Source: Thermococcus sp. M39
GTDB taxonomy: Archaea; Methanobacteriota_B; Thermococci; Thermococcales; Thermococcaceae
Length of the DNA stretch: 64,000 nt
Direction of reading: 5' to 3'
Assembly: GCF_012027325.1 (NCBI RefSeq)
Contig: NZ_SNUG01000003.1
Coordinates: 62,001 to 126,000 of the forward strand
Shown here: piece by piece, positions 29,107 to 53,714 of the stretch
How the letters are laid out: each line of letters opens with the position of its first letter
How positions within the stretch are numbered: the first letter of the stretch is position 1
Notes under the pieces: generated by a model
The model's input: the letters and a program-made list of their open reading frames with translations, nothing else
Databases searched by the model: none
Told to the model about the DNA's origin: nothing
Program-made: the position numbers and the translations under genes

Positions 29107-29166
29107 AGCCGATGATGGCAACAGGGTAGCTGCCGATTGATGACGAAGCCGTTCCAGTCTGAGGCT
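29107..29166 (+). ncRNA. C/D box guide sRNA
   Basis: Terminal stem AGCC/GGCT closes a 60-nt RNA with box C ATGATGG (29112-29118, consensus RUGAUGA), box C' TTGATGA (29137-29143) and box D CTGA (29159-29162). Box D' is degenerate (CTGC at 29130 or CCGA at 29133). The D guide just upstream of box D is agccgttccagt, and the D' guide is about caacagggtag. By the five-nucleotide rule the D guide would direct 2'-O-methylation of the second G in ACUGGAACGGCU; the D' target would be CUACCCUGUUG. A TTAAAAG element about 25 nt upstream may be its TATA box. It overlaps the 3' end of the convergent UspA gene by two bases. Confidence 0.82.
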
Positions 29167-35907: not shown

Positions 35908-35985
35908 GGCCGGGGTGGTGTAGCCTGGTTAGCACAGGGGACTGTGGATCCCCTAGCCCGGGTTCAAATCCCGGCCCCGGCCCCA
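35908..35985 (+). tRNA. tRNA-His (anticodon GTG)
   Basis: Acceptor GCCGGGG/CCCCGGC, an encoded G at position -1 (35908) opposite discriminator C73, the histidine hallmark. Anticodon stem GGGGA/TCCCC with loop ctGTGga, T arm CCGGG-TTCAAAT-CCCGG and encoded CCA ending at 35985. A TATA-like tttataaagata lies about 35 nt upstream. Confidence 0.97.
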
Positions 35986-36090
35986 GAAATTGAGCTTTTC
36001 TAAAATACAAACTTTCCAAAGCTTCTCCTAACAATTGAGATACATTGACATCACTACAAAGCCAAAAATGGATACTTGGGGCAACTAATA

Positions 36091-36300
36091 TCAATGCCCC
36101 ACAGTTCTAACCAATGTATAAATTCCCGCCTCTTCTTTGATGAGGCCTCTTTCTTTGGCAATCTCCAGTAAGGACTTCAAGTCAAGAAATTGGATCCCAT
36201 ACTTGCTGCAGTTGTTCACCAAAACAGGCCAAGAAGCACTACCACCAAAGTCCCTAATCATTTTCAACAGCACTCTCAACTCAGAAGCTTCTCTACTCAT
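36091..36300 (-). CDS. Small winged-helix-like protein, copy 1
   Basis: 69 residues from the ATG at 36300, right after a strong GGGGAGGTGAG site. The sequence MSREASELRVLLKMIRDFGG...LLEIAKERGLIKEEAGIYTLV has the helix spacing and final beta hairpin (GLIKEEAGIYTL) of a winged-helix DNA-binding domain. A second copy at 53303-53512 shares most residues. Upstream, an inverted repeat lies between TATA box and start site, so self-regulation is plausible. Function unknown. Confidence 0.7.
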   Translation of the reverse strand: MSREASELRVLLKMIRDFGGSASWPVLVNNCSKYGIQFLDLKSLLEIAKERGLIKEEAGIYTLVRTVGH

Positions 36301-36367
36301 AGTCTCACCTCCCCATAAGTCTGATTTAAAGAAAAGACAAGATAAAGTTGTCAAAACTTGTATTTAT
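36301..36367 (-). repeat. Duplicated leader/promoter, copy 1, with inverted repeat
   Basis: About 65 nt upstream of the small winged-helix gene is almost identical to 53513-53578 upstream of copy 2 (a few mismatches). It holds a TATA candidate ATAAATAC (minus strand, 36360-36367), an inverted repeat AAGTT-gtcaa-AACTT (36345-36359) just downstream of it, and GGGGAGGTGA. The repeat is where a repressor would block polymerase binding. Confidence 0.65.
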
Positions 36368-36436
36368 CACTTACGACATTCCAAAATATGTCAAGTATCA
36401 GATATGAAATAACTTCAGATAGCCAAAAATCCATCA

Positions 36437-36520
36437 CTACATCACACCCAATAATCCGCCACCATAGAACAACCACAGCAAAAGTGCAACACTTGTCGGC
36501 ACTGTGAACTCATCCCAAGC
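36437..36520 (-). pseudogene. C-terminal remnant of a dolichol-kinase-like membrane protein
   Basis: 27 codons and a stop: AWDEFTVPTSVALLLWLF, then YGGGLLGVM. This matches the C-terminus of the intact gene at 57079-57774 (AWDEFTVPMSTAVLLWLF, then YGGELLSVVW), and the DNA is clearly alignable over about 90 nt. No upstream part of the gene is left in this frame. It shows that a second copy of that gene once stood here. Confidence 0.75.
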
Positions 36521-37993: not shown

Positions 37994-38216
37994 AAAATCA
38001 CCAAGTATTTTTATTGCCTACAAAATATAAAAGAGTTTAGACTGATGTTTGCAACAATACAACTCTACATCTGACTTATTTTTTAATAAACATTTAATCT
38101 AATAGTCTTAGAGCTTTACTAATAACAAAAGTTAATTCATGTTTCTATATTCCATCAATTACTACTATCCAAAAAATAGTTAATCTTAACATTCATGTCT
38201 TGAAAATTTTGAACAA

Positions 38217-38228
38217 AAAAGTATAAAT
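38217..38228 (+). promoter_or_regulatory. Promoter of the symporter block
   Basis: AAGTATAAATCC is a clear TATA element; the start of transcription would be near 38250, leaving a leader with GGAGGTG before the ATG at 38278. The stretch 38035-38216, between the two divergent promoters, is AT-rich and shows no gene. Confidence 0.5.
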
Positions 38229-38277
38229 CCGTACATTAGTATACACTTTACTGCATAACATATGTGGAGGTGCCACA

Positions 38278-38490
38278 ATGGAAAAAGGCCAAGCTCAAAA
38301 GTATGCCCTACTTTTGGGGCTTTTGCCATGGATAGCATATGTAGTGATTTCACCGTTCCTCAACAAGCCAAAACCCTTGCTACTAGGTATGCCACCATTG
38401 ATGTTTTGGAATACACTTTGGCTAATCTTGACAACACTCTCCCTTTATGGAGCCTACAAGCTCGAGTTAGGAGGTGGCCTCCTTGAGTAG
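38278..38490 (+). CDS. DUF3311-like small membrane protein
   Basis: 70 residues with two membrane helices (YALLLGLLPWIAYVVI and LMFWNTLWLILTTLSLYGAY). The pattern LLGLLPWIAYVV...PLLLGMPPLMFWNTLW matches DUF3311 proteins, which are encoded just before SSS-family symporters and are probably accessory subunits. It overlaps the symporter's ribosome binding site and start. Confidence 0.8.
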   Translation: MEKGQAQKYALLLGLLPWIAYVVISPFLNKPKPLLLGMPPLMFWNTLWLILTTLSLYGAYKLELGGGLLE

Positions 38491-39925
38491 CGCAACAGTT
38501 CCTGTTGCAATAATACTCTCTTGGGTATTCCTAAGCCTAGTGGTTGGCGTTTTAGCAGGAATAAAGAGAAAATTCAGCTTAGAAGGATATTTAGTTTCAG
38601 GAAGAAGCTTAGGCTTAATATTCCTTTATGTCCTAATGGCGGGAGAAATTTACAGTGCATATGCATTCTTAGGAACCGGAGGCTGGGCATATTCCTACGG
38701 AATGCCAATAATGTACGCAATAGGTTATGGAGCTCTAGCATATGCCTTCGGTTATTTCTACGCAAAATATGTTTGGAAGGCTGGTAAAGCCTTTGGATGT
38801 GTCACGCAAGCCGATTACTTCCAAGCAAGGTATGACAGCAAATTACTGGCAATTCTAGTAGCATTGATTGGAATAATTTTTAACGTTCCCTACCTCCAAT
38901 TGCAACTTCAAGGTTTGGGATACATAATACACGTAGGTTCATTAAATACGATCTCAATAAAGACCGGAATTATTGTTGGAATGGTAATAATGTTAATTTA
39001 CGTTTATACCAGTGGTCTTAGGGGTATAGCTTGGACGAATTTCCTCCAGGCATTGTTAATGTTTATAGTGGCATGGGCTGTATTATTTGCAATTCCATTT
39101 AAGCAATTTGGAGGAATTGGAAATCTCTTTAATACTTTAGCTCAAACAAAACCCGATCATTTAGTACTACATCCCCCATTAGGCACTGCATGGTATGTTT
39201 CAACTCTAATTTTAAGCGGTCTAGGATTCTTCATGTATCCCCAAATGTATCCTTCAATATACAGCGCAAAAGACTTGAAAACGCTCAAAAAGAACTATGT
39301 GTTACTACCATTATATTCAATCTTCATGATCCCTGTTATATTAGCAGGATTTACAGTTGCTGCACTGGGATTGACGTTAGCTACCCCTGATGAAGCTGTT
39401 TTAAAAGCAGTGGAAATTTCATATCCTTCCTGGGTTTTAGGAATTGTTGGAGCTGCTGGTTTTGCAGCCGCAGCATCAACGGCAAGTGCGATTATACTAA
39501 CACTTGCAGGATTATTATCCAAGAATCTGTATACGATAATCAAGCCAGAAGCATCAGATAAGGAATTGGTACTAGTTAGTAGAGTGTCAGTTATACTCTT
39601 TGGACTTGCTGCAATGCTCTTGGCTCTCTATGCCCCAGGAAGATTAGTTGCTCTATTGCTACTAGCTTATTCAGGTATAACTCAAATGTTCCCAGGGGCT
39701 GTCCTTGGACTCTTCTGGAAGAGAATGAATAAATATGCAGCCGGAGCAGGAATGATTGCAGGATTACTGACTATAACGTATCTTAAATTCATTGTAAAGA
39801 GCAATCCATTGGGAATTCACTTTGGACTCTGGGGTCTGCTTGTAAACTTCATTGTGACAGTAATAGTAGCATATGCAACGAAACCTGATGAAAACTTTGA
39901 AAAATTTAAGGTCGCATTTGCTTAA
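38483..39925 (+). CDS. SSS-family sodium/solute symporter
   Basis: About 480 residues, 13 membrane helices, a Na+-driven carrier of the pantothenate/proline/acetate (SSS) family. Helix-1 SGRSLGLIFLYVLMAGEIYSAY and GLRGIAWTNFLQALLMF are family motifs. GGAGGTG at 38470-38476 is spaced 6 nt from the TTG at 38483 (LSSATVPVAIIL), the probable start. Neighbouring M20 amidohydrolase and pyroglutamyl peptidase suggest an acyl-amino-acid or pyroglutamate substrate (inference). Confidence 0.9.
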   Translation: MSSATVPVAIILSWVFLSLVVGVLAGIKRKFSLEGYLVSGRSLGLIFLYVLMAGEIYSAYAFLGTGGWAYSYGMPIMYAIGYGALAYAFGYFYAKYVWKAGKAFGCVTQADYFQARYDSKLLAILVALIGIIFNVPYLQLQLQGLGYIIHVGSLNTISIKTGIIVGMVIMLIYVYTSGLRGIAWTNFLQALLMFIVAWAVLFAIPFKQFGGIGNLFNTLAQTKPDHLVLHPPLGTAWYVSTLILSGLGFFMYPQMYPSIYSAKDLKTLKKNYVLLPLYSIFMIPVILAGFTVAALGLTLATPDEAVLKAVEISYPSWVLGIVGAAGFAAAASTASAIILTLAGLLSKNLYTIIKPEASDKELVLVSRVSVILFGLAAMLLALYAPGRLVALLLLAYSGITQMFPGAVLGLFWKRMNKYAAGAGMIAGLLTITYLKFIVKSNPLGIHFGLWGLLVNFIVTVIVAYATKPDENFEKFKVAFA

Positions 39926-39966
39926 TGCCCTTTTATTCCTTTTTTATTCGATATGGGGTGATAAGT

Positions 39967-41142
39967 ATGAAAGTAGAAGAGTTTGTAATTAAAAAAGCTA
40001 AGGAGTTAGAATCATATATTGTAGAAATGAGAAGGGACTTTCACATGTACCCAGAACTTAAGTACGAGGAGGAAAGAACTTCATCCATCGTTTCCAAAGA
40101 GCTAGAGGAACTTGGTTATGAGGTTATGAGAACGGCGAAAACTGGCGTTATAGGAATTTTGAGAGGTAAAGAAGAGGGCAAAACCGTAGCTTTGAGGGCT
40201 GATATGGATGCTTTGCCTGTTCAAGAGGAGAATGATGTCCCCTATAAATCAAGAGTTCCAGGCAAAATGCATGCTTGTGGTCACGACGCTCACACAGCAA
40301 TGCTCTTAGGTGCAGCAAAGATATTGGCTGAAATAAAGGACAAATTAAATGGTACAGTAAAACTAATCTTCCAACCAGGGGAAGAAGGGGGATTGGGAGC
40401 TAAAAAAATTGTTGAAGAAGGACACTTAGATGATGTAGAGGCTATTTTTGGTATTCACGTATGGGCTGAGTTACCTTCAGGAACAATCGGAATTAGAGAA
40501 GGTCCTCTACTGGCATCTGCAGATGCGTTTAAAGCTACAATAAGAGGAAAAGGCGGTCATGGTGCAGTACCACATATGTCAATTGATCCAATCGTTGTAG
40601 CAATTGATATTGCAAATGCTTATCAAAAAATCATCTCGAGAGAGATAAACCCACTAGATCCTGCAGTTATAAGCGTTACAAAAATTGTAGCAGGAACAAC
40701 TTTTAATGTCATTCCAGAGACTGCAGAACTTTGGGGAACTATACGAGCATTTAATGAAGAGGTTAGAGATTTTATAATTGAAAGAATGAGGCAGATAACC
40801 GAAGGTTATGCAAAATCAATGAGATGTGAGGGAGAGTTTGAACTCACAATGGAGTACATCCCACCAACAATAAATGATAAAGGCTTGGCAGATTTTGCGA
40901 GGAGAGCATTGAAACCTCTCGGGGAAATAGTTGAGCCAAGACCTACTTTGGGAGCTGAAGACTTTGCCTTCTACACTCAAAAGACCCCAGGATTATTTGT
41001 TCTCCTAGGAATTAGAAATGAGGAGAAAGGAATAATTTATCCTCACCATCATCCGAAGTTTAACGTTGATGAGAGCGTCCTTTGGAAAGGTTCTGCAATT
41101 TATGCCCTGTTAGCTTACGAATACTTGGAGGGGGCGAGATGA
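39967..41142 (+). CDS. M20D amidohydrolase (aminoacylase/carboxypeptidase-like)
   Basis: 391 residues. Metal hydrolase releasing amino acids from N-acyl or hippurate-type substrates. Motifs: [53 protein letters not shown] (metal His and Cys), [18 protein letters not shown] (catalytic Glu pair), [20 protein letters not shown], and [10 protein letters not shown] near the end. GGGGTGATAAGT sets the start at 39967. The stop overlaps the pcp ATG (ATGA). Confidence 0.93.
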
Positions 41143-41798
41143 AAGTCTTAATCACGGGTTTTGAACCGTTTGGTGGAGATGATAAAAATCCAACAGAAAT
41201 GATAGCTAAAACCCTTAACGGAAGGACTATAGATGGAGCACAAATAATTGGGAAAGTTTTACCGGTCTCTGTTAAGCGTGCTGGACCAAAATTAGAGCAA
41301 ATCCTTAATGAGCTAAAACCAGATGTCGTGATAAATTTGGGGCTGGCACCAACTTACAGCAACATAGCCGTCGAACGAGTTGCCTTAAACATTTTGGACG
41401 CTAGAATTCCAGACAATGATGGATATCAGCCAATTGATGAGCCTATAGAAAAAGATGCCCCAATAGCATACTTTGCCACGCTCCCAGTTAGAGCGATAGT
41501 AAAGGAGCTTAAAGATAACGGTGTTCCAGCAGTGATTTCTTACAGTGCTGGAACTTATTTGTGCAATTACGTTATGTTCAAAACGCTCCACTATTCAAAG
41601 CTTCATGGTTATCCTAAAAAAGCAGGTTTCATTCACGTCCCATACACTCCGGATCAAGTTGTTAATAAATTCTTCCTCCTTGGCAAAAACACACCAAGTA
41701 TGTGCCTGGATTTGGAAATCAAGGCAATTGAAATAGCGATCAAGACAACGCTTAAATTTATGAAAGAGGGGAAAGAAGACATCAAAGAGCCAATTTAG
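41139..41798 (+). CDS. pcp: Pyrrolidone-carboxylate peptidase
   Basis: 219 residues. Removes N-terminal pyroglutamate from peptides. Starts [18 protein letters not shown] after GGAGGGGGC; longer frames upstream overlap the M20 gene. Catalytic Glu (in [19 protein letters not shown]), Cys in [12 protein letters not shown] and His in [11 protein letters not shown] are all present. Translationally coupled to the M20 gene, which argues that both act on blocked N-termini. Confidence 0.95.
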
Positions 41799-41812
41799 TT
41801 GAGGTCAAGAAG

Positions 41813-42253
41813 ATGCGAGTGCTTGGCCTCGTTGTCCTTTTAATTTCTTCTCTAATACTAGGTTTCATCATGCTAGAAGACTCAAGTTTTGTTCCTCCAG
41901 AGGTGAAGGTAACTGATTTAAAAGTATCAGTTGAAGGGCTTGCAAGCTCTTCACTCAACATAACCCTAAGTATATACAATCCAAACAAAGTTACAATAAC
42001 AGTTATGAAAATTGACTACAACATTTACGGGAGTGACAATGTTGCAGTGGAAAACGGTAGGGTTATTAAACAAATAACGATACCACCGAACGCCGCAAAA
42101 TATGTTTCAATTCAGATCAAAATGAAGTATGGAACGCTAAAAGCTGTTTGGGGAGCTATGGAAATGGACAAAATTGAGTGGAGAATTATAGGAAAACTCT
42201 ACATGAAAGTTAACGGTAAAGATGTCGTGATGTCTTTTGAGGACAAAATTTAA
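41813..42253 (+). CDS. Membrane-anchored LEA14/WHy-domain protein
   Basis: 146 residues: one N-terminal membrane helix or signal (MRVLGLVVLLISSLILGFIM) and a single beta-sandwich domain (about 28-140; LNITLSIYNPNKVTITVMKI) typical of LEA2/WHy proteins. 14 nt after pcp, with GAGGTC upstream, so it is likely co-transcribed. In archaea this domain is usually outside the cell; function unknown. Confidence 0.75.
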   Translation: MRVLGLVVLLISSLILGFIMLEDSSFVPPEVKVTDLKVSVEGLASSSLNITLSIYNPNKVTITVMKIDYNIYGSDNVAVENGRVIKQITIPPNAAKYVSIQIKMKYGTLKAVWGAMEMDKIEWRIIGKLYMKVNGKDVVMSFEDKI

Positions 42254-42424
42254 CACATAGGTAAAGAAATACAAGAATCAAAATTTAACGTTTTTCAAAT
42301 AAATTTCCTCTTTTTGCGTATTTCGTTGCATATAGTCTTTGATAACTTATGATAACTATATGTAAGCATATATTTAGTCAACTAACCTTTCTCCGGTCCT
42401 TTAGAATAGGCTTGATCGGTTGTC

Positions 42425-42476
42425 AAGTTTTAAACTTAACAAAGTTATTCTACTTTGTATGTTAAAATTTAACATA
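42425..42476 (+). promoter_or_regulatory. Palindromes in the control region of the peptide locus
   Basis: Two inverted repeats: AAGTTTTAAACTT (42425-42437) and TATGTTAAAATTTAACATA (42458-42476; arms of nine bases around one central base). A half site TATGTTAAAT follows at about 42503. They lie about 70-110 nt upstream of the likely TATA box (CTTAAATATATAC, about 42528-42540). Such sites suit a dimeric Lrp-type regulator, and one is encoded at the end of this gene block. The rest of the 330-nt intergenic region holds no gene. Confidence 0.5.
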
Positions 42477-42527
42477 TAACAGGATCAAAATTTCACAAAT
42501 GTTTATGTTAAATCTTGCTCCATAATG

Positions 42528-42540
42528 CTTAAATATATAC
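42528..42540 (+). promoter_or_regulatory. TATA box of the peptide transporter operon
   Basis: CTTAAATATATAC fits an archaeal TATA box. Transcription would begin near 42563, leaving a leader of about 20 nt that contains GGAGG before the ATG at 42584. Confidence 0.5.
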
Positions 42541-42583
42541 ATTAATGCACGTTATTTTGACAACCCGATGGAGGCCACTCCGG

Positions 42584-44380
42584 ATGGAAAGGAAAATAGT
42601 GAAAATAGTGGTAGCAATAAGTATTTTTATTCTTTTGTTTAGTCAGCTAGGGAGCGCTGAAAGTTCAAAAGCTCCAGTATTTCCAGGAGTTGAAAAGATT
42701 GGAGGCACACTAGTAGTTCTCTACTGGGGTGACCCAAAGAGCTTTAATCCTGATGCTCAAGTAGACGATGCGGGGTATGGTATAGCTAATCAAATTTTCA
42801 GTAAGCTTGTAACACTAGATAGGGATTACAACGTCATTCCCGATCTTGCTTATAAATGGGAGGTCAGCGATGATGGAAAAGTTTACACTTTCTATCTTAA
42901 CCCCAATGCAACATGGCATGATGGTGTCCCTGTAACAGCTGAAGATGTAAAATGGACTTTTGAGGCAATAAAGAAGTATAAGGGCATAGCTTATGGCATA
43001 ATTCACGCTGATAACATAGAGAAAATTGAAGTTGTTGACAATCACACAGTGCGCTTTTACTTGAAAGAACCATTCGCACCATTTTTGTCATTCATAGCAT
43101 GGTACGGGACATTTATACTACCCAAACATATTTATGAGAAGTACGATGATTGGCTTGACCCAAGCAACCCCTACCTGAACAAGCCAATTGGAAGTGGACC
43201 ATTTAAGTTTGTCGAGTGGGTAAAGGGTGATCACATAACATTAGTTGCAAATGAGAACTATTTCAAAGGGAGACCCGGAATTGACAAGATTATCTATAAA
43301 ATAATACCCGACTCATCTGCTGCATTGCAGGCATTCTTAGCTGGAGAAGGCGATGTATTAGGACAAAGACCACCACTAACTGAGATTCCAAGACTCAAGT
43401 CAACACCGGGAGTATCTGTATCCATAAGACCAGTCCCAAGCAGATGGTACTTAGGTTTCAACTTAAAGCGCCCATATCTACAAGATGTCAGGGTTAGACA
43501 GGCTATAGCATATGCAATAAACAAAGAGGAGATAGTTGAAAAGGCTGAGAATGGTCTCGGATATCCTGCAGAAGGAACATATGTTCCTGCAATTAAGTGG
43601 GCATTCAATCCAAATGCAAAGCTACCAGAGTACAATCCTGAAAAAGCAAAGCAGCTGTTAGATGAGGCAGGATTCAAAGACATTAATGGAGATGGATTTA
43701 GAGAAACTCCCGACGGAAAGCCATTAGAGCTTAGATTGCTTTACTTTACGGGAAGCGACACCAATGCTATATGTACTCTTATCAAAGAGCAACTTCAGAA
43801 AGTTGGTCTGAAGGTTAAGCTCGAAAGCTATGAAATAGCAACATGGGAGCAGAAAGTCGTAAAGGATAGGGACTTTGATCTAGCTCTCGTGGACGGATTC
43901 CAAGGTCCAGATCCAGCAAACATGGAAATAAGGTTCAAATCTACAGCATACATAAACTTCGCTGGTTACAACAACACTGAATTCGATAAGATTCTTGAGG
44001 AAGCTGCAAAGACAACAGACAAAGAAAAGCGTAAAGAACTCTACTGGAAGGCTCAGGAAATCCTTGCAAAAGATCTTCCATATCTGCCACTCGTTGATCT
44101 TGTTGCAATTTCAGTTTGGAGAAACGAGTTCCATGGAATGCCTTGGGAAGACGAAGCTGTTGGCAAAGTTGGAGCTGGAGTCTATGCAATGGTCTGGTGG
44201 GAAAAAGGAAAGCCAATCGCAGAGACCACATCTCCAACAGCCACCTCAGAAACCTCCAAGGCATCAACAGCTACCCAGGAAACACAGACAACCACAGAAG
44301 AGAAGAAGACTTGTGGTCCAGCAACTTTGGTGGGTCTAGCCTTGATACCCGTACTCTTTAGGCGGAAACGCAAATTATGA
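42584..44380 (+). CDS. ABC peptide-binding protein with C-terminal CGP anchor
   Basis: 598 residues, family 5 (Dpp/Opp) solute-binding protein. Signal segment (VKIVVAISIFILLFSQLGSA), then the SBP domain with TWHDGVPVTAEDVKWTFEAI (about 105) and the domain end near 530. A Thr/Ser-rich linker (about 540-570) leads to KKTCGPATLVGLALIPVLF, RRKRKL: the CGP-type C-terminal anchor known from Thermococcaceae surface proteins. The ATG at 42584 (MERKIVKIV) follows GGAGG; the frame continues upstream to 42545 over the promoter. A T-rich stretch after the gene may lower expression of the genes behind it. Confidence 0.93.
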   Translation: MERKIVKIVVAISIFILLFSQLGSAESSKAPVFPGVEKIGGTLVVLYWGDPKSFNPDAQVDDAGYGIANQIFSKLVTLDRDYNVIPDLAYKWEVSDDGKVYTFYLNPNATWHDGVPVTAEDVKWTFEAIKKYKGIAYGIIHADNIEKIEVVDNHTVRFYLKEPFAPFLSFIAWYGTFILPKHIYEKYDDWLDPSNPYLNKPIGSGPFKFVEWVKGDHITLVANENYFKGRPGIDKIIYKIIPDSSAALQAFLAGEGDVLGQRPPLTEIPRLKSTPGVSVSIRPVPSRWYLGFNLKRPYLQDVRVRQAIAYAINKEEIVEKAENGLGYPAEGTYVPAIKWAFNPNAKLPEYNPEKAKQLLDEAGFKDINGDGFRETPDGKPLELRLLYFTGSDTNAICTLIKEQLQKVGLKVKLESYEIATWEQKVVKDRDFDLALVDGFQGPDPANMEIRFKSTAYINFAGYNNTEFDKILEEAAKTTDKEKRKELYWKAQEILAKDLPYLPLVDLVAISVWRNEFHGMPWEDEAVGKVGAGVYAMVWWEKGKPIAETTSPTATSETSKASTATQETQTTTEEKKTCGPATLVGLALIPVLFRRKRKL

Positions 44381-44389
44381 AACTTCTTC

Positions 44390-44406
44390 TTAGTTTTTTC
44401 TTTTTC
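44390..44406 (+). terminator. T-rich partial terminator after the binding protein
   Basis: Two T-runs (about 44393-44399 and 44401-44405) lie within the 50 nt between the binding-protein gene and dppB. Leaky termination here would give more binding protein than permease, as is common for such operons. Confidence 0.35.
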
Positions 44407-44432
44407 GGCTTTACTCTTGGGGAGGTGAAAAT

Positions 44433-45404
44433 ATGGGTTCAATGAAGGCATACATTTTAAGAAGAAGTGCCCAATTGATTCTTGTAATATTCTTTGTTCT
44501 GTTCCTAAACTTCGTAATAATTAATGCTGCTCCAGGAAACCCTGCTCAACTCATGGCAGGAGAGTACAGCACAGAAGAGTACATCAAAGCAATAGAGGCT
44601 CGTTGGGGACTTGATAAGCCTATACATGTGCGGTTTTTTATATATATGAACAACCTTTTACATGGCGATCTGGGATATTCCTATAGATATTTAGAACCAG
44701 TTTCAAAACTTATAATGGAAAGGCTTGGAAAAACACTGTTACTCACAGTTCCGAGTATAATAATTGCCTTTTTAATCGGTATATGGTTGGCAAGGATAGC
44801 GGCAAGAAAGCCCGGAGGCAAAATTGACGTGGCGTTTTCAATCCTTACCCTAGTATTCTATTCAATGCCCTCCTTCTGGCTTGGCTTGCTTTTAATCCTA
44901 ATATTTGGAGTTAAATTGGGAGTCCTTCCAATAGCCGGAATGACAAATATTAGAGCGGTTTATTCCAGCTATTGGGATAAAATACTCGACATTTTAAAAC
45001 ACATGATACTTCCAGTAACAACACTCATGCTAATCCAAATCCCAGCCTACTTCAGAATCACAAGAGGGGCAATAATAGAACAGTCAACAGAAGACTACGT
45101 AAAGACTTTCGATGCAGTAGGCTTTTCAAAGAAGTACATTTTCAACAAATATATATTTAGAAACGCCATTTTACCCCCAGTAACAATATTAGGCCTGAGA
45201 TTAGGTTATGCTTTCTCAGGAGCCGCGTTAGTTGAAATCGTTTTTGGATGGCCTGGAATGGGAAGATTGTTACTTGATGCAGCATTTGCAAGAGACTATC
45301 CTCTAATAATGGGCATCTACTTAGTGATCGCAATAAGCGTTGCAGTTGCAATATTCATAACGGATTTACTATATGCAGTGTTAGATCCTAGAATAAGATA
45401 TTGA
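44433..45404 (+). CDS. Peptide ABC permease, DppB type
   Basis: 323 residues with six membrane helices. First permease of the Opp/Dpp importer. Starts MGSMKAYILRRSAQLILVIF; the coupling-helix region reads YVKTFDAVGFSKKYIFNKYIFRNA, and GAALVEIVFGWPGMGRLLLD is the family motif. GGAGGTGA is 4 nt before the ATG. Confidence 0.93.
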   Translation: MGSMKAYILRRSAQLILVIFFVLFLNFVIINAAPGNPAQLMAGEYSTEEYIKAIEARWGLDKPIHVRFFIYMNNLLHGDLGYSYRYLEPVSKLIMERLGKTLLLTVPSIIIAFLIGIWLARIAARKPGGKIDVAFSILTLVFYSMPSFWLGLLLILIFGVKLGVLPIAGMTNIRAVYSSYWDKILDILKHMILPVTTLMLIQIPAYFRITRGAIIEQSTEDYVKTFDAVGFSKKYIFNKYIFRNAILPPVTILGLRLGYAFSGAALVEIVFGWPGMGRLLLDAAFARDYPLIMGIYLVIAISVAVAIFITDLLYAVLDPRIRY

Positions 45405-45414
45405 GGTGGTAAAA

Positions 45415-46266
45415 ATGGCCAATAGAATTGTTGGAGCTATTTCTGAGATCAAATACACAAAAACAGGTTTGATAGGCCTGATCCTACTTACGGTACTTGT
45501 AACTATAGCGTTAATAGCTCCCCTTCTACCCATACCTGATCCCCATTCTACCGAGTTCCAACCATTCCTGCCACCTTCAAAAGCTCACCCAATGGGAACT
45601 GATAATCTAGGAAGAGACATCTTTAGCAGAGTCCTATGGGGAACAAGAACGTCTCTAGCAGTGGGTTTAGTCGCAGCCGGACTCTCTGCCATTATAGGAG
45701 TTCTCGTTGGAGGAATTGCCGGATACTATGGAGGAACAATTGATGATGTGCTGAGCAGAATAACTGAGATATTCCTAGTAATCCCAGGATTTTTCTTAGC
45801 GCTTTTAGTTGTCTCAATCTTCGGGAGCAGTCTAATCAACATAATGGTAGTCCTTGGATTGTTAACTTGGCCCTCAAATGCAAGACTAATGAGAGCTCAA
45901 GCTTTGTCATTAAAGGAAAGAGAATTCATCCAGGCACTCAAAGTGTCAGGTGTTAGTGACTTGAAGATAGTTCTAAGGCACATAATTCCAAATGGAATTC
46001 AGCCAATAATAGCGAATACATTTCTCCAAATGGCAGGAGCAATAATTACAGAAGCAGGATTAAGCTTCATTGGGCTTGGGGATCCTAATGTGGTAAGCTG
46101 GGGCAAAATGATATATGAAGGACAGATTTACATAACAAGTTATTGGTGGGTTCCAATATTTCCAGGAATATTTCTCGTCCTAACCGTGCTGGCATTGAAC
46201 TTGCTTGGAGATGGTCTTCTAACACTACTTAATCCAAAACTTAGAAGGGCAATTGGGGTGAGTTAA
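45415..46266 (+). CDS. Peptide ABC permease, DppC type
   Basis: 283 residues with about six helices, second permease of the importer. The N-terminal domain with HPMGTDNLGRDIFSRVLWGTR is diagnostic of DppC/OppC; REFIQALKVSGVSDLKIVLRHIIPNG is the coupling region. The ATG at 45415 follows GAGGTGG. Confidence 0.93.
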   Translation: MANRIVGAISEIKYTKTGLIGLILLTVLVTIALIAPLLPIPDPHSTEFQPFLPPSKAHPMGTDNLGRDIFSRVLWGTRTSLAVGLVAAGLSAIIGVLVGGIAGYYGGTIDDVLSRITEIFLVIPGFFLALLVVSIFGSSLINIMVVLGLLTWPSNARLMRAQALSLKEREFIQALKVSGVSDLKIVLRHIIPNGIQPIIANTFLQMAGAIITEAGLSFIGLGDPNVVSWGKMIYEGQIYITSYWWVPIFPGIFLVLTVLALNLLGDGLLTLLNPKLRRAIGVS

Positions 46267-47250
46267 ATGAGCAACATACTGAGTGTTAAAAACCTAACCG
46301 TCAAGTATAGAACAAGATACGGAACGGTGCACGCTCTCTCTGATGTTTCCTTTGATATAAAAAAAGGTTCAATCGTTGGTATAATCGGAGAATCCGGAAG
46401 TGGGAAATCAACACTAGGACATACTATACTCAGAACACTCCCAGAAAATGCAGAAATAAAAAGTGGTGAGATAATTTTTAATGAAGAAAATATTTTGGCA
46501 ATAGATGAAGAAAAGTTCAGAAGAGACTTCAGATGGAAGAGAATCTCGATGATATTCCAAAATTCCATGAACGCATTCAGCCCAGTTCACAGAATCCAAG
46601 ACCAGCTGTTAGATGTTGCAAGAAAGTGTTTCCCAAACAAAACAAGAGAAGATCTTCTCGATATAATAAAAGAAAAGCTGAAGATAGCAAATATTGATGA
46701 GAGTGTTCTTAAGAAATATCCTCATGAACTAAGTGGAGGTCAGAGGCAAAGAGTTGCTATAGGAATGGCACTTTTAGCAGATCCCGAAGTTGTGATTGCA
46801 GACGAGCCAACAACCGGACTAGATGTCGTCACTCAGTATCAGATTTTAAACAGATTAAAGCAAATCCAAGAAGATTTGGGAATAACCCTACTTTTAATAA
46901 CCCACGATGTTTCTGTAGTCGCTGCACTTAGCACAGATGTATTGGTGCTTTATGCAGGGAAAGTTCTGGAATATGGAAAGACAAAGAGGGTCTTCAAGCA
47001 CTCTAATCATCCATATACATACCTACTCTTAAAGTCATATCCAGACATAGGAAAAGAGAAGCTCTATGAAATACCAGGATCTCCCCCAGATTTGCGTAAT
47101 CCTCCTTCTGGCTGTGTATTCCACCCGAGATGTCCCTATGCAACAGACATCTGTAGAGAAGAGGATCCAAAGATTAGAGAAGTTGAGGAAGGACACCTTT
47201 CTGCATGTCACTATGCAGAGTCTTTTGTTAAGGAGGTGGAAACTCAATGA
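46267..47250 (+). CDS. Peptide ABC ATPase, DppD/OppD type
   Basis: 327 residues. Walker A GESGSGKSTLG, signature LSGGQRQRVAIGMAL, Walker B VIADEPTTGLD. The C-terminal oligopeptide domain has the Cys pattern CVFHPRCPYATDIC...C, a site that holds a [4Fe-4S] cluster in a bacterial DppD structure. It starts 1 nt after dppC and overlaps the next ATPase by 4 nt. Confidence 0.94.
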   Translation: MSNILSVKNLTVKYRTRYGTVHALSDVSFDIKKGSIVGIIGESGSGKSTLGHTILRTLPENAEIKSGEIIFNEENILAIDEEKFRRDFRWKRISMIFQNSMNAFSPVHRIQDQLLDVARKCFPNKTREDLLDIIKEKLKIANIDESVLKKYPHELSGGQRQRVAIGMALLADPEVVIADEPTTGLDVVTQYQILNRLKQIQEDLGITLLLITHDVSVVAALSTDVLVLYAGKVLEYGKTKRVFKHSNHPYTYLLLKSYPDIGKEKLYEIPGSPPDLRNPPSGCVFHPRCPYATDICREEDPKIREVEEGHLSACHYAESFVKEVETQ

Positions 47251-48221
47251 GTGCTAATGATGTATTGATCGAAGCAAAAGGACTCACAAAGCTGTTTCCA
47301 ATAACCAGCTCAATTTTAGGGAAGAAAGTCTCTATTAGAGCTGTAGATGATGTCAACCTTACAATAAAGAAAAATGAGATTTTAGGACTTGTTGGGGAAT
47401 CCGGTTGTGGAAAATCAACTTTAGGAAAACTGTTGGTCAGACTTTTAGAACCAACATCAGGAGTTGTACTCTTTAAAGGAAATAACATCTACAAGCTTAA
47501 GGGAAGTGCTCTGAAGCAGTATAGGAAGAATGTTCAAATGGTTTTTCAGAACCCGTACACCTCTTTTGATCCAAGATTGACGTTGTTTGACAACATTGCG
47601 GAGCCAATGTATACTCATAAGCTTGCACTAAACAAGAAAGAAGCCCTTACTTTAGCAATGGGCTACTTTGAAGATGTTGGTCTAACACCCCCCGAAGACT
47701 TTTTGATGAGATATCCCCATGAACTGAGCGGAGGACAGCTCCAGAGGGCTTCAATAGCCAGGGCAATTGCACTAGAGCCTGAGTTTATAATAGCAGATGA
47801 ACCAACCTCAATGCTCGATGCTTCTCTTCGCTCCGGAATACTCAATTTGATAAAGAAGCTCAAAGATGAGCTTAAGACAAGTTGGCTTTTCATAACTCAC
47901 GATTTGCCTTCTGCATACTATATAGCCGACAGAATAGCAGTCATGTATCTCGGCAAGATTGTCGAGATTGGAAAGAGCAAAGAGGTACTCAAAAATCCCC
48001 TCCATCCTTACACAAAGGCATTGCTTGATGCAAATCTCCCTCTTGATCCAGATGCACCTTTGAGAGAACCCAAGGTTAAAGGAGAACCAAGACCCGTTAT
48101 AGAAACAGGTTATTGTAGATTTGCTCCAAGATGCCCATATGCATTTGAAAGATGCAAAAAAGAGGAACCCCCGCTTGTAGAAGTTAAAAAAGACCACTAT
48201 GTTGCATGCTGGCTCTATTAG
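47247..48221 (+). CDS. Peptide ABC ATPase, DppF/OppF type
   Basis: 324 residues. Walker A GESGCGKSTLG, signature LSGGQLQRASIARAI, Walker B IIADEPTSMLDASLRSG; the C-terminal CRFAPRCPYAFERCKKEEPP again carries four cysteines with the last in ACW. Pairs with DppD as a heterodimer. The gene overlaps the first amidohydrolase's upstream region, indicating one long transcript. Confidence 0.94.
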   Translation: MSANDVLIEAKGLTKLFPITSSILGKKVSIRAVDDVNLTIKKNEILGLVGESGCGKSTLGKLLVRLLEPTSGVVLFKGNNIYKLKGSALKQYRKNVQMVFQNPYTSFDPRLTLFDNIAEPMYTHKLALNKKEALTLAMGYFEDVGLTPPEDFLMRYPHELSGGQLQRASIARAIALEPEFIIADEPTSMLDASLRSGILNLIKKLKDELKTSWLFITHDLPSAYYIADRIAVMYLGKIVEIGKSKEVLKNPLHPYTKALLDANLPLDPDAPLREPKVKGEPRPVIETGYCRFAPRCPYAFERCKKEEPPLVEVKKDHYVACWLY

Positions 48222-48232
48222 GAGGTGCTAAT

Positions 48233-49387
48233 ATGGGAGACCTTATTATAAAGAATGTGAAAGCCTACACTATGGGAAAGAAAGGGCTTATAGAAAAGGC
48301 AAACATCATTGTAAAGGATAACAAGATAAAGAAGATAACTTCTAGATCCATTGCCGTAAAGGGGAAAATAGTAATTGATGGAGAAGGGCTTATTGCACTG
48401 CCCGGCTTGATAGATCCTCACACCCACCTTGGAATTTATCCCCTAGAGTGGGAGTACGGGGATCATGGAGTTGAAAAGTCAGATCCAATAACCCCCCATC
48501 TTAAAGTTGTTGACGGGCTAGATCCTTTCGATCCTGGTTTCAGAGACGCCATTATGGGAGGCATTACCACAGTTTCAATAGAGCCAGGAAGCCCACTTTC
48601 TTGGGCAAGCTATGAGAAGACTACCATAATGCCGGGTCAATCGGCTATTCTCAAAACAAATGGCAAGATAATTTCTGAGGAGGCAGGAATAAAGATAGCC
48701 GTGGGAGGACATGTTAGGAAGTTCCTAGAAGAACTCAAGATGCCCCCAATGACTAGAATGGGAATATTGGCATCGATAAGAACAATACTCCAAAAAGCGA
48801 AAGAATACGCGGAAAAGAAAGAAGATAAACAATACGATCCAAAGCTTGAGGCATTAGAGAAGCTTATAAAAAACGAAACAATGGCAAGGATTCATGTGCA
48901 TGTTTCTAGGGATATACTCTCCATAATAAAACTCTTGGAAAGTTTTGGAGTTCAGAAAATAATCATAGAGCATGGCACGGAAGCATATAAGGTTTCAGAG
49001 TTTTTGAAAGATAAGAACATTCCCGTAATACTTGGGCCAGTGATATTTCCAAAGAGAGGAGCAGAGCTGAGAGAACTCTCCTCAAAGCTGCCAGCTATGC
49101 TCTACAGCTCTGGTGTTCTTTTCGCTCTTACAACAGATCACCCAGCAATTCCAATTCAGTACCTAACCCTAATAGCAGCTGCATGCGTTGGTGATGGATT
49201 GCCATATGAAGAAGCCCTAAAGAGCATCACAATAAACGCAGCAAAAATACTTGGAATCGACAAATTTGTCGGGAGCCTTGAAGAAGGGAAAGACGCCGAT
49301 ATAGTGCTCTTTGACGGGGATCCCCTTGATCCAACTACTAAAGTTGTCTATACCATCATTGATGGAGAAATCGTCTATGAGAGGTGA
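48233..49387 (+). CDS. Metal-dependent amidohydrolase, copy A
   Basis: 384 residues, TIM-barrel amidohydrolase of the imidazolonepropionase/cyclic-amide (COG1228-like) group. First metal site in PGLIDPHTHLGIYPLEWEYG, further ligands in HVHVSRD and IIEHGTEAY, and the catalytic Asp in LTTDHPAIP. Conserved unit VDGLDPFDPGFRDAIMGGIT is shared with copy B. GGAGGTGC sets the start at 48233. It is 11 nt behind the transporter ATPase, so it probably acts on something brought in by it, perhaps a cyclic or blocked dipeptide. Substrate not known. Confidence 0.85.
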   Translation: MGDLIIKNVKAYTMGKKGLIEKANIIVKDNKIKKITSRSIAVKGKIVIDGEGLIALPGLIDPHTHLGIYPLEWEYGDHGVEKSDPITPHLKVVDGLDPFDPGFRDAIMGGITTVSIEPGSPLSWASYEKTTIMPGQSAILKTNGKIISEEAGIKIAVGGHVRKFLEELKMPPMTRMGILASIRTILQKAKEYAEKKEDKQYDPKLEALEKLIKNETMARIHVHVSRDILSIIKLLESFGVQKIIIEHGTEAYKVSEFLKDKNIPVILGPVIFPKRGAELRELSSKLPAMLYSSGVLFALTTDHPAIPIQYLTLIAAACVGDGLPYEEALKSITINAAKILGIDKFVGSLEEGKDADIVLFDGDPLDPTTKVVYTIIDGEIVYER

Positions 49388-49393
49388 TAAACT

Positions 49394-50557
49394 ATGAAAG
49401 CCCTAGTTGGCGGGACTGTTTTACCAGTTTCCCACCCACCTATCAAAGATGGAGTTGTTCTTTTTGATGAACACTCAGGAAAAATCTTAACAGTTGGCAA
49501 AAGAAGCAAAGTTAAGATTCCAGAAGACACTGAAGTGATCGATGTATCAGGCAAATATATATCTCCTGGCTTTGTAGATGCTCACAGCCACATTGGCATG
49601 ATTCCTGATGGTCTTGAGTGGGAATTTCAAGAGGCAAATGATTTCTATAGTCCTATCGCCCCCCATTTAAGAGCAATTGATGGGTTTGACCCATATGATG
49701 AAGCATTTAACGATGCCATAGCCGGCGGAGTTACAACTGTTGCAACTGGGCCTGGAAGTGCGAATGTCATGGGAGGAGTTGGTCTTATAGCAAAAACCTA
49801 CGGAGACGGCTTTGAAAAAGTTATAAATCCAGAAGCTTTCTTGAAGATGGCTCTTGGACCAAAGAGACCCAGAGAATACAAAAGCAAGCTCCCTTATCCA
49901 ACAACGAGAATGGGGACTGTAGCATTTATGAGGATATGGTTCAAGCGTGCACAAGACTTTATGGAAGGAAAAATAAAAGAGGAAAATATAGACACCGAGG
50001 AAAAAGAAATGTTAAATCTACTGGCAAAAGCACTAAAGAGAGAAATACAGGTAAAAATCCATCTTTCAACATCTCCTGATGAAATATACGCAGTTTTAAG
50101 AATAATAAAAGAATTTAACCTCAATGCAACTATTGACCATGCTTTTGGAAGTCAACTCGTTGTAGACATGCTCAGCAAGGAGAACGTTCCAGTAATTTAT
50201 GGACCCCCAATGATAGCTAGGATAGCATCTTTCTTCAGATATGTGAGTGATGAGGCTCCAGTGCTCTTATTCAAAAAGGGGGTCAATGTTTCCATAATGA
50301 CAGATCATCCCGTGCTTCCGGAGAAACATCTACGCCTCTTAGCAGCTGCAGTTGCTAGGAACGGTTTATCGCTTGATGAAGCGTTAAAATTGATAACAAT
50401 AAACCCTGCAAAAGCCTTGGGAATTGATAAGTTTGTTGGAAGCCTAGAGCCGGGGAAGGATGCAGATATTGTCGTATCATCTGGCCATCCTATAAACCCC
50501 ACCTCAAGAATTGAGATTGTTTTTGGAAAAGGAAAGGAGGTATTCAGAAATGAGTGA
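49394..50557 (+). CDS. Metal-dependent amidohydrolase, copy B
   Basis: 387 residues, a diverged paralogue of copy A. Metal site in SPGFVDAHSHIGMIPDGLEW; further ligands in IHLSTSPDE and TIDHAFGSQ, Asp in IMTDHPVLP. The shared unit reads IDGFDPYDEAFNDAIAGGVT. It follows copy A by 6 nt and overlaps the peptidase gene by 8 nt. Tandem paralogues next to one another suggest two related substrates or a hetero-oligomer. Confidence 0.85.
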   Translation: MKALVGGTVLPVSHPPIKDGVVLFDEHSGKILTVGKRSKVKIPEDTEVIDVSGKYISPGFVDAHSHIGMIPDGLEWEFQEANDFYSPIAPHLRAIDGFDPYDEAFNDAIAGGVTTVATGPGSANVMGGVGLIAKTYGDGFEKVINPEAFLKMALGPKRPREYKSKLPYPTTRMGTVAFMRIWFKRAQDFMEGKIKEENIDTEEKEMLNLLAKALKREIQVKIHLSTSPDEIYAVLRIIKEFNLNATIDHAFGSQLVVDMLSKENVPVIYGPPMIARIASFFRYVSDEAPVLLFKKGVNVSIMTDHPVLPEKHLRLLAAAVARNGLSLDEALKLITINPAKALGIDKFVGSLEPGKDADIVVSSGHPINPTSRIEIVFGKGKEVFRNE

Positions 50558-52451
50558 ATGGGATGAAAAAACCTTTGCAAAGTTTGCCTATTTAGGAGAT
50601 GTAAGGATTTCAAGAGATGGAAAGCAAGTAGCATATGTTATGACGAAGGCAAACTTAAAAACAGACAAATATGATAGCACAATCATAATTGAAGGCCTCA
50701 AAAATGGGGAAAGAAAGTTTATAGAAAACGCCACAATGCCCCGTTTCTCTCCCGATGGGAACAAAATGACTATTGCAAGACTAAATGAAGAAAAAAAGAT
50801 AACCGAACTCTGGCTTTATGACCTCAGAAGCATGAGCGGAAAGAAAATCGGAGAATACGAGAGTATAATGGATGTTCAGTGGGGGCCTGACAGTAGAAGA
50901 ATCCTTATAACCGGCTTCAAGAGACGTGGAGATGAGCACCTATATTTTGAAGACAAAACTCCCGTCTGGTTTGATATGAAAGGTTTTCTAGATGGCGAGA
51001 AAACGATGCTCCAGCTCATTGACACTGAAAGCGAGGAGATAATTGATACAATTACAATAGAGTCATTCGCCTTGCCCTACTTCAATGTTGCAGTTTGGCA
51101 TGGAGATAAAGTTGTTTACAATGTGCCTAAAGAGGAAAACCCCTACAAGCTCTTTGATATATTTATCTACGAAGATGGCAAAAGTGAAAAAATATTTGAA
51201 AACGTCTCGTTTAGGGCAGTTGATTCCAACGGAGAATTCCTCCTTCTTCTTGGAAAGCCGAAGAAAGAAAAGCTCAGTGAGCATGATTACATCTACCTTT
51301 GGGATGGCAAGGAAGTCAAACCGCTAACAGAGCGCTTCATTTATAACAACTGGAATGGAAAGCTCGATGCTAAAGGAAACTTATACTTCACAATGGCAAA
51401 AGAGGGAAGAGTGAACCTCTACAAGCTTAAAAATGACAAACTAATCCCAATAGTTGATGAGAACGCTTGGGTCATGGGGTTTGATGTGAGCGATGATGGT
51501 AAGGTCGTTCTTCTAAAGCAGACAGACACAAAGCTCAGCGAAGTGTTCCTCTGGGATGGAAAGCTCAAACAAATAACTGATTACAATGGCCCAATTTTAG
51601 CGAAGCTCAAAACGAGACCAATAAAGCACTTCCGCTTTAAGTCCCTTGATTTGGAGCTTGATGGATGGTACATCAAGCCTGACATTAAAGAAGGTGAAAA
51701 AGCTCCAGTCATAGTCTTCGTTCACGGCGGTCCAAAGGGGATGTACGGCTATTACTTCAAATACGAAATGCAGTTAATGGCTGACAAAGGCTACTACATA
51801 GTTTTTGTCAACCCAAGAGGAAGCAATGGTTACGATGAAGATTTTGCCTTGAGAGTTCTCGAAAGGACAGGATTAGAGGACTTTCAGGATATAATGAATG
51901 GAATTGAGGAATTCTTTAAACTTGAACCCCAAGCCGATCGCGAAAGAGTTGGGATAACGGGAATAAGCTATGGAGGCTTTATGACGAACTGGGCACTTAC
52001 ACAGAGTGACTTGTTCAAAGCTGGAATTAGCGAGAACGGCATAAGCTACTGGTTGACAAGCTATGCCTTCTCAGATATAGGCTTATGGTTCGACAAGGAA
52101 GTGATTGGAGAGAACCCACTCGAAAACGAGAACTACAGAAAGCTCAGCCCACTCTTTCATGCACAAAACGTTAAGGCTCCAATACTAATCATCCACAGCC
52201 TCGAGGACTACCGCTGTCCGCTTGACCAGAGCGTTATGTTCTACCACGTGCTCAAGGACTTAGGAAAAGAGGCCTACATCGCAATCTTCAAGAGAGGCGC
52301 GCACGGGCACAGCATAAGAGGCTCACCAAGACACAGAGCAAAGAGATACAAACTCTTCATGGAATTCTTCGAAAGAAAACTAAAGAAATACGAAGAAGGC
52401 TTCGACATCGAGAAGATTTTGAAAGAAGAAAAGAAAGAAGGTGAAGTCTAG
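50550..52451 (+). CDS. Acylaminoacyl-peptidase / prolyl-oligopeptidase-family serine peptidase
   Basis: 633 residues: N-terminal beta-propeller (about 1-370), then an alpha/beta hydrolase domain. Catalytic Ser in TGISYGGFMTNW, Asp in HSLEDYRCPLDQ, His in RGAHGHSIRG. The oxyanion stretch FVHGGPKGMYGY is present. S9C-type enzymes cut acylated amino acids from peptide N-termini. GGAGGT before the ATG at 50550 (MSEWDEKTFAKF) sets the start; it overlaps the amidohydrolase stop. Confidence 0.93.
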   Translation: MSEWDEKTFAKFAYLGDVRISRDGKQVAYVMTKANLKTDKYDSTIIIEGLKNGERKFIENATMPRFSPDGNKMTIARLNEEKKITELWLYDLRSMSGKKIGEYESIMDVQWGPDSRRILITGFKRRGDEHLYFEDKTPVWFDMKGFLDGEKTMLQLIDTESEEIIDTITIESFALPYFNVAVWHGDKVVYNVPKEENPYKLFDIFIYEDGKSEKIFENVSFRAVDSNGEFLLLLGKPKKEKLSEHDYIYLWDGKEVKPLTERFIYNNWNGKLDAKGNLYFTMAKEGRVNLYKLKNDKLIPIVDENAWVMGFDVSDDGKVVLLKQTDTKLSEVFLWDGKLKQITDYNGPILAKLKTRPIKHFRFKSLDLELDGWYIKPDIKEGEKAPVIVFVHGGPKGMYGYYFKYEMQLMADKGYYIVFVNPRGSNGYDEDFALRVLERTGLEDFQDIMNGIEEFFKLEPQADRERVGITGISYGGFMTNWALTQSDLFKAGISENGISYWLTSYAFSDIGLWFDKEVIGENPLENENYRKLSPLFHAQNVKAPILIIHSLEDYRCPLDQSVMFYHVLKDLGKEAYIAIFKRGAHGHSIRGSPRHRAKRYKLFMEFFERKLKKYEEGFDIEKILKEEKKEGEV

Positions 52452-52561
52452 TAGGCACAGATTTGCTCTCCCTTGAATCTTTCATTTTAGGGAAAATTAG
52501 CTGAAATAAGAATGTCTGCTCTAAGCATTGCTGTGGTGAAAAGTGTAAGGGGGATTAAGAC

Positions 52562-53083
52562 ATGAATGAAGGGTGGAAAGTTGGGGAAATCGAGCTACTA
52601 AAAAAGATATTTAAAGGAAAACTTGATGAAACAGACATAAGGATATACATGCTTCTCAGGGAAAACGGAAAGATGAGCGACAGCGAAATTGCAAGAAAAC
52701 TTGGAGTTTCAGTCACAACTGTAAGACGGAGAAGAAAGAGGCTCCAAGACGAAGGAATACTTCAGATTATAGCTCTCCTCCTGCTAAAGGCTGCTAATGC
52801 TAGCTATGCCGATGTACTCGTAAAGTTCAAGCAGGGCACAAAAATCGAAGAAGTCAATGAATTCATAAGCAACGCAATTAAAAATCCCAGAATATATGAG
52901 GTAACACTTTACATAGGTGGAAAATATGATGTTCTATTAAGGTTCTTTGAAGGAAACCTAGAGAGTTTAAAGTACCATATTGAAAAATTTCTAAGGAGCT
53001 CCCGAGTAGTGGAAAGTTACGAAGTAAATACTGCGGTAGGAAGTCCAAAAGCATGGTACAAAGAGTTTAAGATCAAATTCTGA
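52562..53083 (+). CDS. Lrp/AsnC-family transcriptional regulator
   Basis: 173 residues. N-terminal winged HTH (about 20-75; MSDSEIARKLGVSVTTVRRR) and C-terminal RAM-like ligand domain (about 85-165; YADVLVKFKQGTKIEEVNEF, GGKYDVLLRFFEGNLES). About 110 nt behind the peptidase and on the same strand, with a GGGGGATTA before the ATG. Lrp regulators respond to amino acids, so this is the best candidate to control the peptide locus and to bind the palindromes at 42.4 kb. Confidence 0.88.
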   Translation: MNEGWKVGEIELLKKIFKGKLDETDIRIYMLLRENGKMSDSEIARKLGVSVTTVRRRRKRLQDEGILQIIALLLLKAANASYADVLVKFKQGTKIEEVNEFISNAIKNPRIYEVTLYIGGKYDVLLRFFEGNLESLKYHIEKFLRSSRVVESYEVNTAVGSPKAWYKEFKIKF

Positions 53084-53108
53084 GATATCTTAATTAATTT
53101 TACCTAAT

Positions 53109-53186
53109 TTACTCCTTTAATGAATCATAAAACGGCACCTCTAAGCCTCTCAGTATCTTGATTCCGAAGAGGATCTTATATTCCTG
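53109..53186 (-). pseudogene. Short C-terminal gene remnant
   Basis: Twenty-five codons and a stop read QEYKILFGIKILRGLEVPFY, DSLKE, preceded by a stop in frame. The composition is like a real protein end, and the surrounding 200 nt has no intact gene. It may be left over from the same rearrangement that duplicated the neighbouring winged-helix gene. Family unknown and short, so doubtful. Confidence 0.25.
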
Positions 53187-53302
53187 TTATGCATCTTTCT
53201 CCCTGCAGAGTTTCTTCGATTTCTCGATACAATATTTTTATATCTTCTCCGAAAAAATCCTGCTAGAATATTATAATCCCAGTCACCCCATATATTTTAA
53301 AA

Positions 53303-53512
53303 TCAGTGCTTCACAGCCTTAACCAGAGTACAAATTCCCGCCTCTTCTTTTATGAGCCCTCTTTCTTTGGCAATCTCTAGCAAGGGCTTTAAATCGAGAA
53401 GAGGAATCCCATACTTGCTGCAGTTATTCACAAGCACTGGCCAAGAAGCACTACCACCAAAATCCTCAATCATCTTTAACAAAGCCCCCAACTCAGAAGC
53501 TTCCCCACTCAT
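53303..53512 (-). CDS. Small winged-helix-like protein, copy 2
   Basis: 69 residues: MSGEASELGALLKMIEDFGG...LLEIAKERGLIKEEAGICTLV. Strongly similar to copy 1 at 36091-36300 and preceded by an almost identical leader. Start at 53512 after GGGGAGGTGATGCT. Differences are clustered at the N-terminus (ELGALLKMIE for ELRVLLKMIR) and the C-terminus (CTLVKAVKH for YTLVRTVGH). Function unknown; probably a small DNA-binding regulator. Confidence 0.7.
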   Translation of the reverse strand: MSGEASELGALLKMIEDFGGSASWPVLVNNCSKYGIPLLDLKPLLEIAKERGLIKEEAGICTLVKAVKH

Positions 53513-53578
53513 AGCATCACCTCCCCATAAATCTGATTTAAAGAAAAGACAAGATAAAGTTGTCAAAACTTGTATTTA
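53513..53578 (-). repeat. Duplicated leader/promoter, copy 2, with inverted repeat
   Basis: Nearly identical to 36301-36367. The inverted repeat AAGTT-gtcaa-AACTT lies at 53557-53571, next to a TATA candidate ATAAATAC (minus strand). Non-coding sequence conserved as well as or better than the gene itself points to recent duplication or to strong selection on the control site. Confidence 0.65.
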
Positions 53579-53714
53579 TATTATTACAGCATCGCATCCA
53601 TTCATAGCAAGCAAATTTTGTTTTATTTGTCGAAGATTTTACTAAGTTTCTGACTATAATAGTCAAAGGAAAAGCGAAAGATATAAAGAATCAAAAATTA
53701 GAATTTAAAGAAGC

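Follow-up and report, generated by a model that had tools for sequence, protein, structure and literature searches.

What is the short gene that recurs, each time behind the same leader, in this 64,000-nt stretch of Thermococcus DNA (the window), and what might it regulate? As the preliminary description had it, a 69-codon gene and about 65 nt of leader are present twice: with ~67 nt of leader, the two copies span 36091-36367 and 53303-53579. A third copy, with the same leader, lies on another contig of the same genome (G000:C4:2916-3122) and adds to that count. The 29-mer AAGATAAAGTTGTCAAAACTTGTATTTAT, which contains AAGTT-gtcaa-AACTT, has exactly two occurrences in the window (36339-36367 and 53551-53579), as compared with 0.00 expected by chance. 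The genes and leaders of the two window copies comprise the following features.

36091..36300, minus strand: copy 1 coding sequence (CDS), 69 aa, with ATG at 36298-36300 and stop at 36091-36093; winged helix predicted by AlphaFold2.
36301..36367, minus strand: copy 1 conserved promoter with 5′ leader (67 nt), beginning at the TATA box and ending immediately before the ATG.
36361..36367, minus strand: copy 1 TATA-box-like ATAAATA, invariant in nine leaders.
36305..36312, minus strand: copy 1 Shine-Dalgarno sequence, GGAGGTGA.
53303..53512, minus strand: copy 2 CDS, predicted 69-aa winged-helix protein.
53513..53579, minus strand: copy 2 promoter and 5′ leader, with the TATA box at 53573-53579.

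The leaders of the two window copies are 96% identical in the matched stretch, and a direct count over the 67 nt before the ATG gave three differences. By contrast, the CDSs share 82% nucleotide identity and the proteins 84% amino-acid identity. The conservation of the leader extends across species and is not confined to these two copies. By CDS identity, the nearest relatives of copies 1, 2 and 3 are found in genomes G002, G004 and G005, respectively. The tree of leader plus gene was an unresolved star, from which the copies are not datable. Judged from these sequences, neither the tree nor CDS identity resolves the three copies as a recent duplication.

To delimit the unit, we compared it among relatives. 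Of 115 genomes of the class, 10 encode the protein, with 12 copies in total, all within the family Thermococcaceae; no homologue was found outside this family among the 115 genomes searched. The copies of G010 and G018 are distant (38-47% identity). The leader of every close copy has approximately the sequence ATAAATAC-AASTTTTGNCAAMTTT...TTCTTYAAATCAGANTTAYGG(N)GGAGGTGA-ATG, and ATAAATA probably acts as the TATA box, judging from other archaeal promoters. The best conserved block, TTCTTYAAATCAGANTTA, is kept even in the divergent G009 copy. A leader search of 94 genomes of the family returned eight significant matches, all at copies of the gene, and the matches of a UTR block search in 41 genomes were likewise confined to the gene. 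The gene's own promoter thus carries a conserved operator-like sequence specific to it, and across the 94 family genomes the leader occurs nowhere apart from the gene. In comparisons with the divergent G034 copy, leader identity was 0.73-0.79 as compared with 0.18-0.43 at four-fold synonymous sites, indicating that strong selection acts on the leader. Between copies at unrelated sites, the alignment begins at the TATA box (about -74) and extends no further than the stop (about +210). Promoter, leader and ORF therefore form one unit of ~280 bp. Together with the specificity of the leader for the gene, this bears out the earlier suggestion that gene and leader are carried as a unit.

The main new clue to the role of this unit is its positional linkage to three classes of DNA-modification defence. 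The window copies are solitary: copy 1 is located between tRNA-His and a formamidase gene, and copy 2 after a sugar ABC transporter. In the same chromosomal region of other genomes, the gene is alone (G003 and G005) or beside a tyrosine integrase (G004). In G006 it stands directly upstream of a type I RM operon that begins with hsdM, and in G002 its neighbour is a type IIG/ISP RM enzyme, after which come DUF3800 and EVE-domain genes. At an unrelated place in G034, the gene again directly precedes hsdM on the same strand, and the type I RM linkage of G006 and G034 spans two genera. Copy 3 is followed by PbeA, a PbeB-like ORF and PbeC, a Pbe-type cluster; in G009, a cluster of this type lies downstream with two small ORFs between. 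Defence genes are thus directly downstream in G006, G034 and G002 (RM) and at copy 3 (Pbe), and there are none at the window copies or in G003 and G005. Outside the tRNA-His/formamidase/sugar-transporter region, all three close copies (copy 3, G009 and G034) adjoin defence systems. The distant copies of G010 and G018 adjoin an ABC transporter cluster and have no defence neighbour. The Pbe-like cluster of the window's genome occupies L022 3310-11871 (G000:C4), with PbeA (E 8e-210), a weak PbeB-like ORF and PbeC, and adjoins convergent DUF7680 and DUF499 genes.

The repeated same-strand placement upstream of defence systems suggests that the protein would probably regulate, locally or by titration, defence loci that are costly or newly acquired. 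The gene is optional to these loci. Orthologues of hsdM with at least 83% identity occur in about 15 genomes, with the winged-helix gene upstream only in G006 and G034. G037 has the same metallo-beta-lactamase/hsdM locus as G034 without the gene, and G068 has a PbeA homologue without it. Further, hsdM has its own conserved TATA region, and the promoters of hsdM, the ISP enzyme and PbeA contained no leader motif more often than expected by chance. For these reasons, control of the neighbouring defence genes by the winged-helix protein is a hypothesis that we consider possible but doubtful, and weaker than that of autoregulation.

The same facts bear on the strongest alternative, that the gene is a passenger at island edges: an ordinary small regulator at the tRNA-His hot spot and other islands, which restriction systems adjoin with no functional link. 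The gene adjoins tRNA-His in G000, G003 and G005. In G004, a 47-bp copy of the tRNA-His 3′ end (about 8530-8580 of L023; window counterpart 35942-35988) sits between the gene and the tyrosine integrase (L023 7539-8462), and this duplication beside an integrase marks tRNA-His as an integration site. The occurrence of the defence systems without the gene and the absence of common operator motifs also fit a passenger. However, copy 3 and the copies of G009 and G034 are outside the tRNA-His region and precede defence systems on the same strand. Moreover, G006 and G034 share the arrangement of gene and hsdM despite unrelated DNA upstream of the promoters. We consider the passenger explanation worth keeping in mind, yet on balance improbable.

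Possible traces of recombination were observed around the window copies. Approximately 15 kb of peptide, amidohydrolase and transport genes are inserted at 38000-53300; in G003 and G006, the formamidase gene directly adjoins the sugar ABC transporter. The two copies are direct repeats that bracket this insert and the formamidase gene, an arrangement that could have arisen by recombination within the winged-helix gene. The ~150 nt upstream of copy 1 (36367-36520) resemble G002 and not the syntenic G003, G005 and G006, although the formamidase region beside copy 1 is nonetheless syntenic with the latter three. This combination suggests that the unit was replaced by recombination. Elsewhere, the window holds a C/D box sRNA of Rfam family sR22 (29108-29164).

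Turning to the protein, an alignment-based AlphaFold2 model showed a complete winged helix (H-E-H-H-E-E) with a mean pLDDT of 89.8. According to Foldseek, the best match and many others were winged helices, with none reaching E 0.001. The confident model and the fold matches agree with each other and with the winged helix of the preliminary description. No Pfam or NCBIfam family, HTH_3 and WYL included, matched the 69-aa protein above cut-off. The best solved match was PBP2 (SSO6202) of Sulfolobus, likewise a lone small winged helix, with a target-normalised TM of 0.85, an rmsd of 1.2 over 60 columns and 22% identity. PBP2 is the protein-binding winged helix of the PolB1 holoenzyme, and its DNA binding was not detectable (PMC5418573). 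As the best match binds a polymerase and no DNA, DNA binding by the 69-aa protein is likely for a predicted fold of this class but not guaranteed.

The resemblance to PBP2 raises the second alternative: the protein may contact a polymerase, MCM or a restriction subunit, with another host regulator binding the leader. On inspection of the sequence, neither the putative recognition helix nor the wing is strongly basic, which counts against a DNA-binding regulator, and the presence of Asp and Glu in the helix favours a protein binder. Homology to the MCM C-terminal winged helix was considered on the basis of a phmmer match to 2ma3 (E 0.038) and rejected, as the match disappeared in a profile search. 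Winged helices are, however, widely alike, which together with the Foldseek E-values tempers the PBP2 match; PBP2 is a crenarchaeal polymerase subunit, whereas no polymerase linkage was seen here. Were a host regulator responsible, its sites should also occur at other genes, whereas the leader is confined to the winged-helix gene. Overall, we regard a PBP2-like protein binder as unlikely.

Much less probable is an anti-defence or immunity gene under a strong conserved promoter. Small archaeal viral genes of this kind are recognisable by a conserved early promoter or regulatory sequence (PMC11065993), and the present unit shares with them the small protein, the strong TATA box and Shine-Dalgarno sequence and the conserved promoter; restriction genes adjoin, and there is one integrase neighbour. 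By contrast, the viral sequence is common to many genes, whereas here the promoter belongs to one chromosomal family. A viral, phage or plasmid origin was rejected, as viral contigs, phages and plasmids yielded no homologues. These differences render the anti-defence reading very unlikely. Hardly credible is RNA-level control of translation, via a structured 5′ UTR or an upstream ORF, as the explanation of leader conservation. In its favour, the best conserved block belongs to the predicted 5′ UTR and reaches into the approach to the Shine-Dalgarno sequence. Against it, three leaders showed no folding beyond that of shuffled sequences (z +0.97 to +1.65), an extension of the ORF into the leader (87 aa, TTG start) was rejected because in-frame stops interrupt it in G002 and G003, the mini-ORF ATG-GGG-AGG-TGA is missing on inspection from G006, G002, G003 and G005, and the conservation covers the TATA-to-start region, where no transcription is expected. 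The lack of such folding in these leaders suggests that the leader functions at the DNA level.

Candidate operators in the leader are listed below.

36345..36359, no strand assigned: AAGTT-N5-AACTT, the inverted repeat of the preliminary description, in both window copies and not kept in relatives.
36336..36352, minus strand: copy 1 candidate operator GACAA-N7-TTGTC, spanning the predicted transcription start.
53548-53564, minus strand: copy 2 candidate dyad.
36316..36328, minus strand: TAAATC-A-GACTTA, an imperfect palindrome in the UTR of copy 1, within the best conserved block.
53528-53540, minus strand: copy 2 UTR palindrome, TAAATCAGATTTA.

The operator first proposed, AAGTT-gtcaa-AACTT, did not withstand comparison with relatives: its G-C pair is broken in five of nine sequences, and there are zero compensatory changes at any pair. 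A second dyad, GWCAA-N7-TTGWC, was picked from a scan of 4884 candidates. In this dyad, 84% of the cells are paired, with A-T, T-A and C-G occurring at one position. As it was selected from among so many, this weak covariation argues only modestly for GWCAA-N7-TTGWC as a putative operator. The UTR palindrome YAAATCAGANTTA is conserved and 81.5% paired, with no covariation, and is thus uninformative in that respect. We would not commit to any single candidate dyad as the operator.

The best explanation of these data is that the unit encodes a stand-alone winged-helix regulator that controls its own expression and is linked to defence loci; we judge the case for this to be evenly balanced. We propose that the ~280-bp transcription unit, with its TATA box, conserved ~65-nt promoter/5′ leader, strong Shine-Dalgarno sequence and a 69-aa lone winged helix, would yield a small dimeric DNA-binding protein. 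This regulator would repress its own promoter through dyad-like DNA at or just past the start site, and the leader would never be found apart from the gene because the protein would bind it to repress itself. A broader proposal is more doubtful still than control of the neighbouring genes. It is that the units constitute a novel family of solitary winged-helix controllers in archaea, inseparable from their own promoter-operator and recruited upstream of type I RM, type IIG/ISP RM and phosphorothioate-linked Pbe systems, and that the protein sets their expression or senses the DNA modification state. If control of type I, type IIG/ISP and Pbe systems were true, the protein would be a hyperthermophilic, 69-residue version of the defence-regulator role, and its operator would be very compact and easy to test. 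The unit also offers a sequence marker by which defence islands can be sought in Thermococcales.

Controller (C) proteins are very small autoregulators that are carried with their own operator beside RM genes and that have the all-helical Xre/HTH_3 fold. The present protein resembles them in its small size and in that the gene travels with its own promoter. It differs in its predicted winged helix with a beta wing, in having no HTH_3 or other Pfam match, and in being optional to RM. Aspects of the C proteins of type II RM systems are treated in PMC3874152 and PMC4824078.

Two further regulators of defence islands have been described in bacteria, and it is these that the unit most resembles in its proposed role. 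RptR (RMS-proximal transcriptional regulator) represses the promoter of type I RM islands via repeated or palindromic sites that are conserved along with it (PMC12255303). Its gene, like that of the putative winged-helix regulator, is small and genetically linked to type I RM. However, RptR is bacterial and binds TAGCTA, a sequence absent on inspection from all the leaders aligned here. In addition, several defence classes are involved here, hsdM has its own promoter and control is putative; the two are likened here by role. BrxR is a DNA-binding repressor that binds inverted repeats and is found near diverse defence systems (PMC9122601), with which the winged-helix gene is likewise co-located. 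BrxR combines several domains, among them a ligand-sensing WYL domain, whereas the 69-aa protein described here consists of a single winged helix and gave no WYL match.

Passages of a survey of archaeal RM systems (PMC10609329) discuss such regulators in archaea no further than a control-protein category. As the protein has neither the fold of C proteins nor the architecture of BrxR, and the leaders lack the TAGCTA sites of RptR, we did not file it with any of these known regulators. It is best filed as a new family, a member of none of the three but perhaps working like RptR, BrxR and the C proteins. The unit may play in archaea the part that small regulators beside restriction systems play in bacteria.
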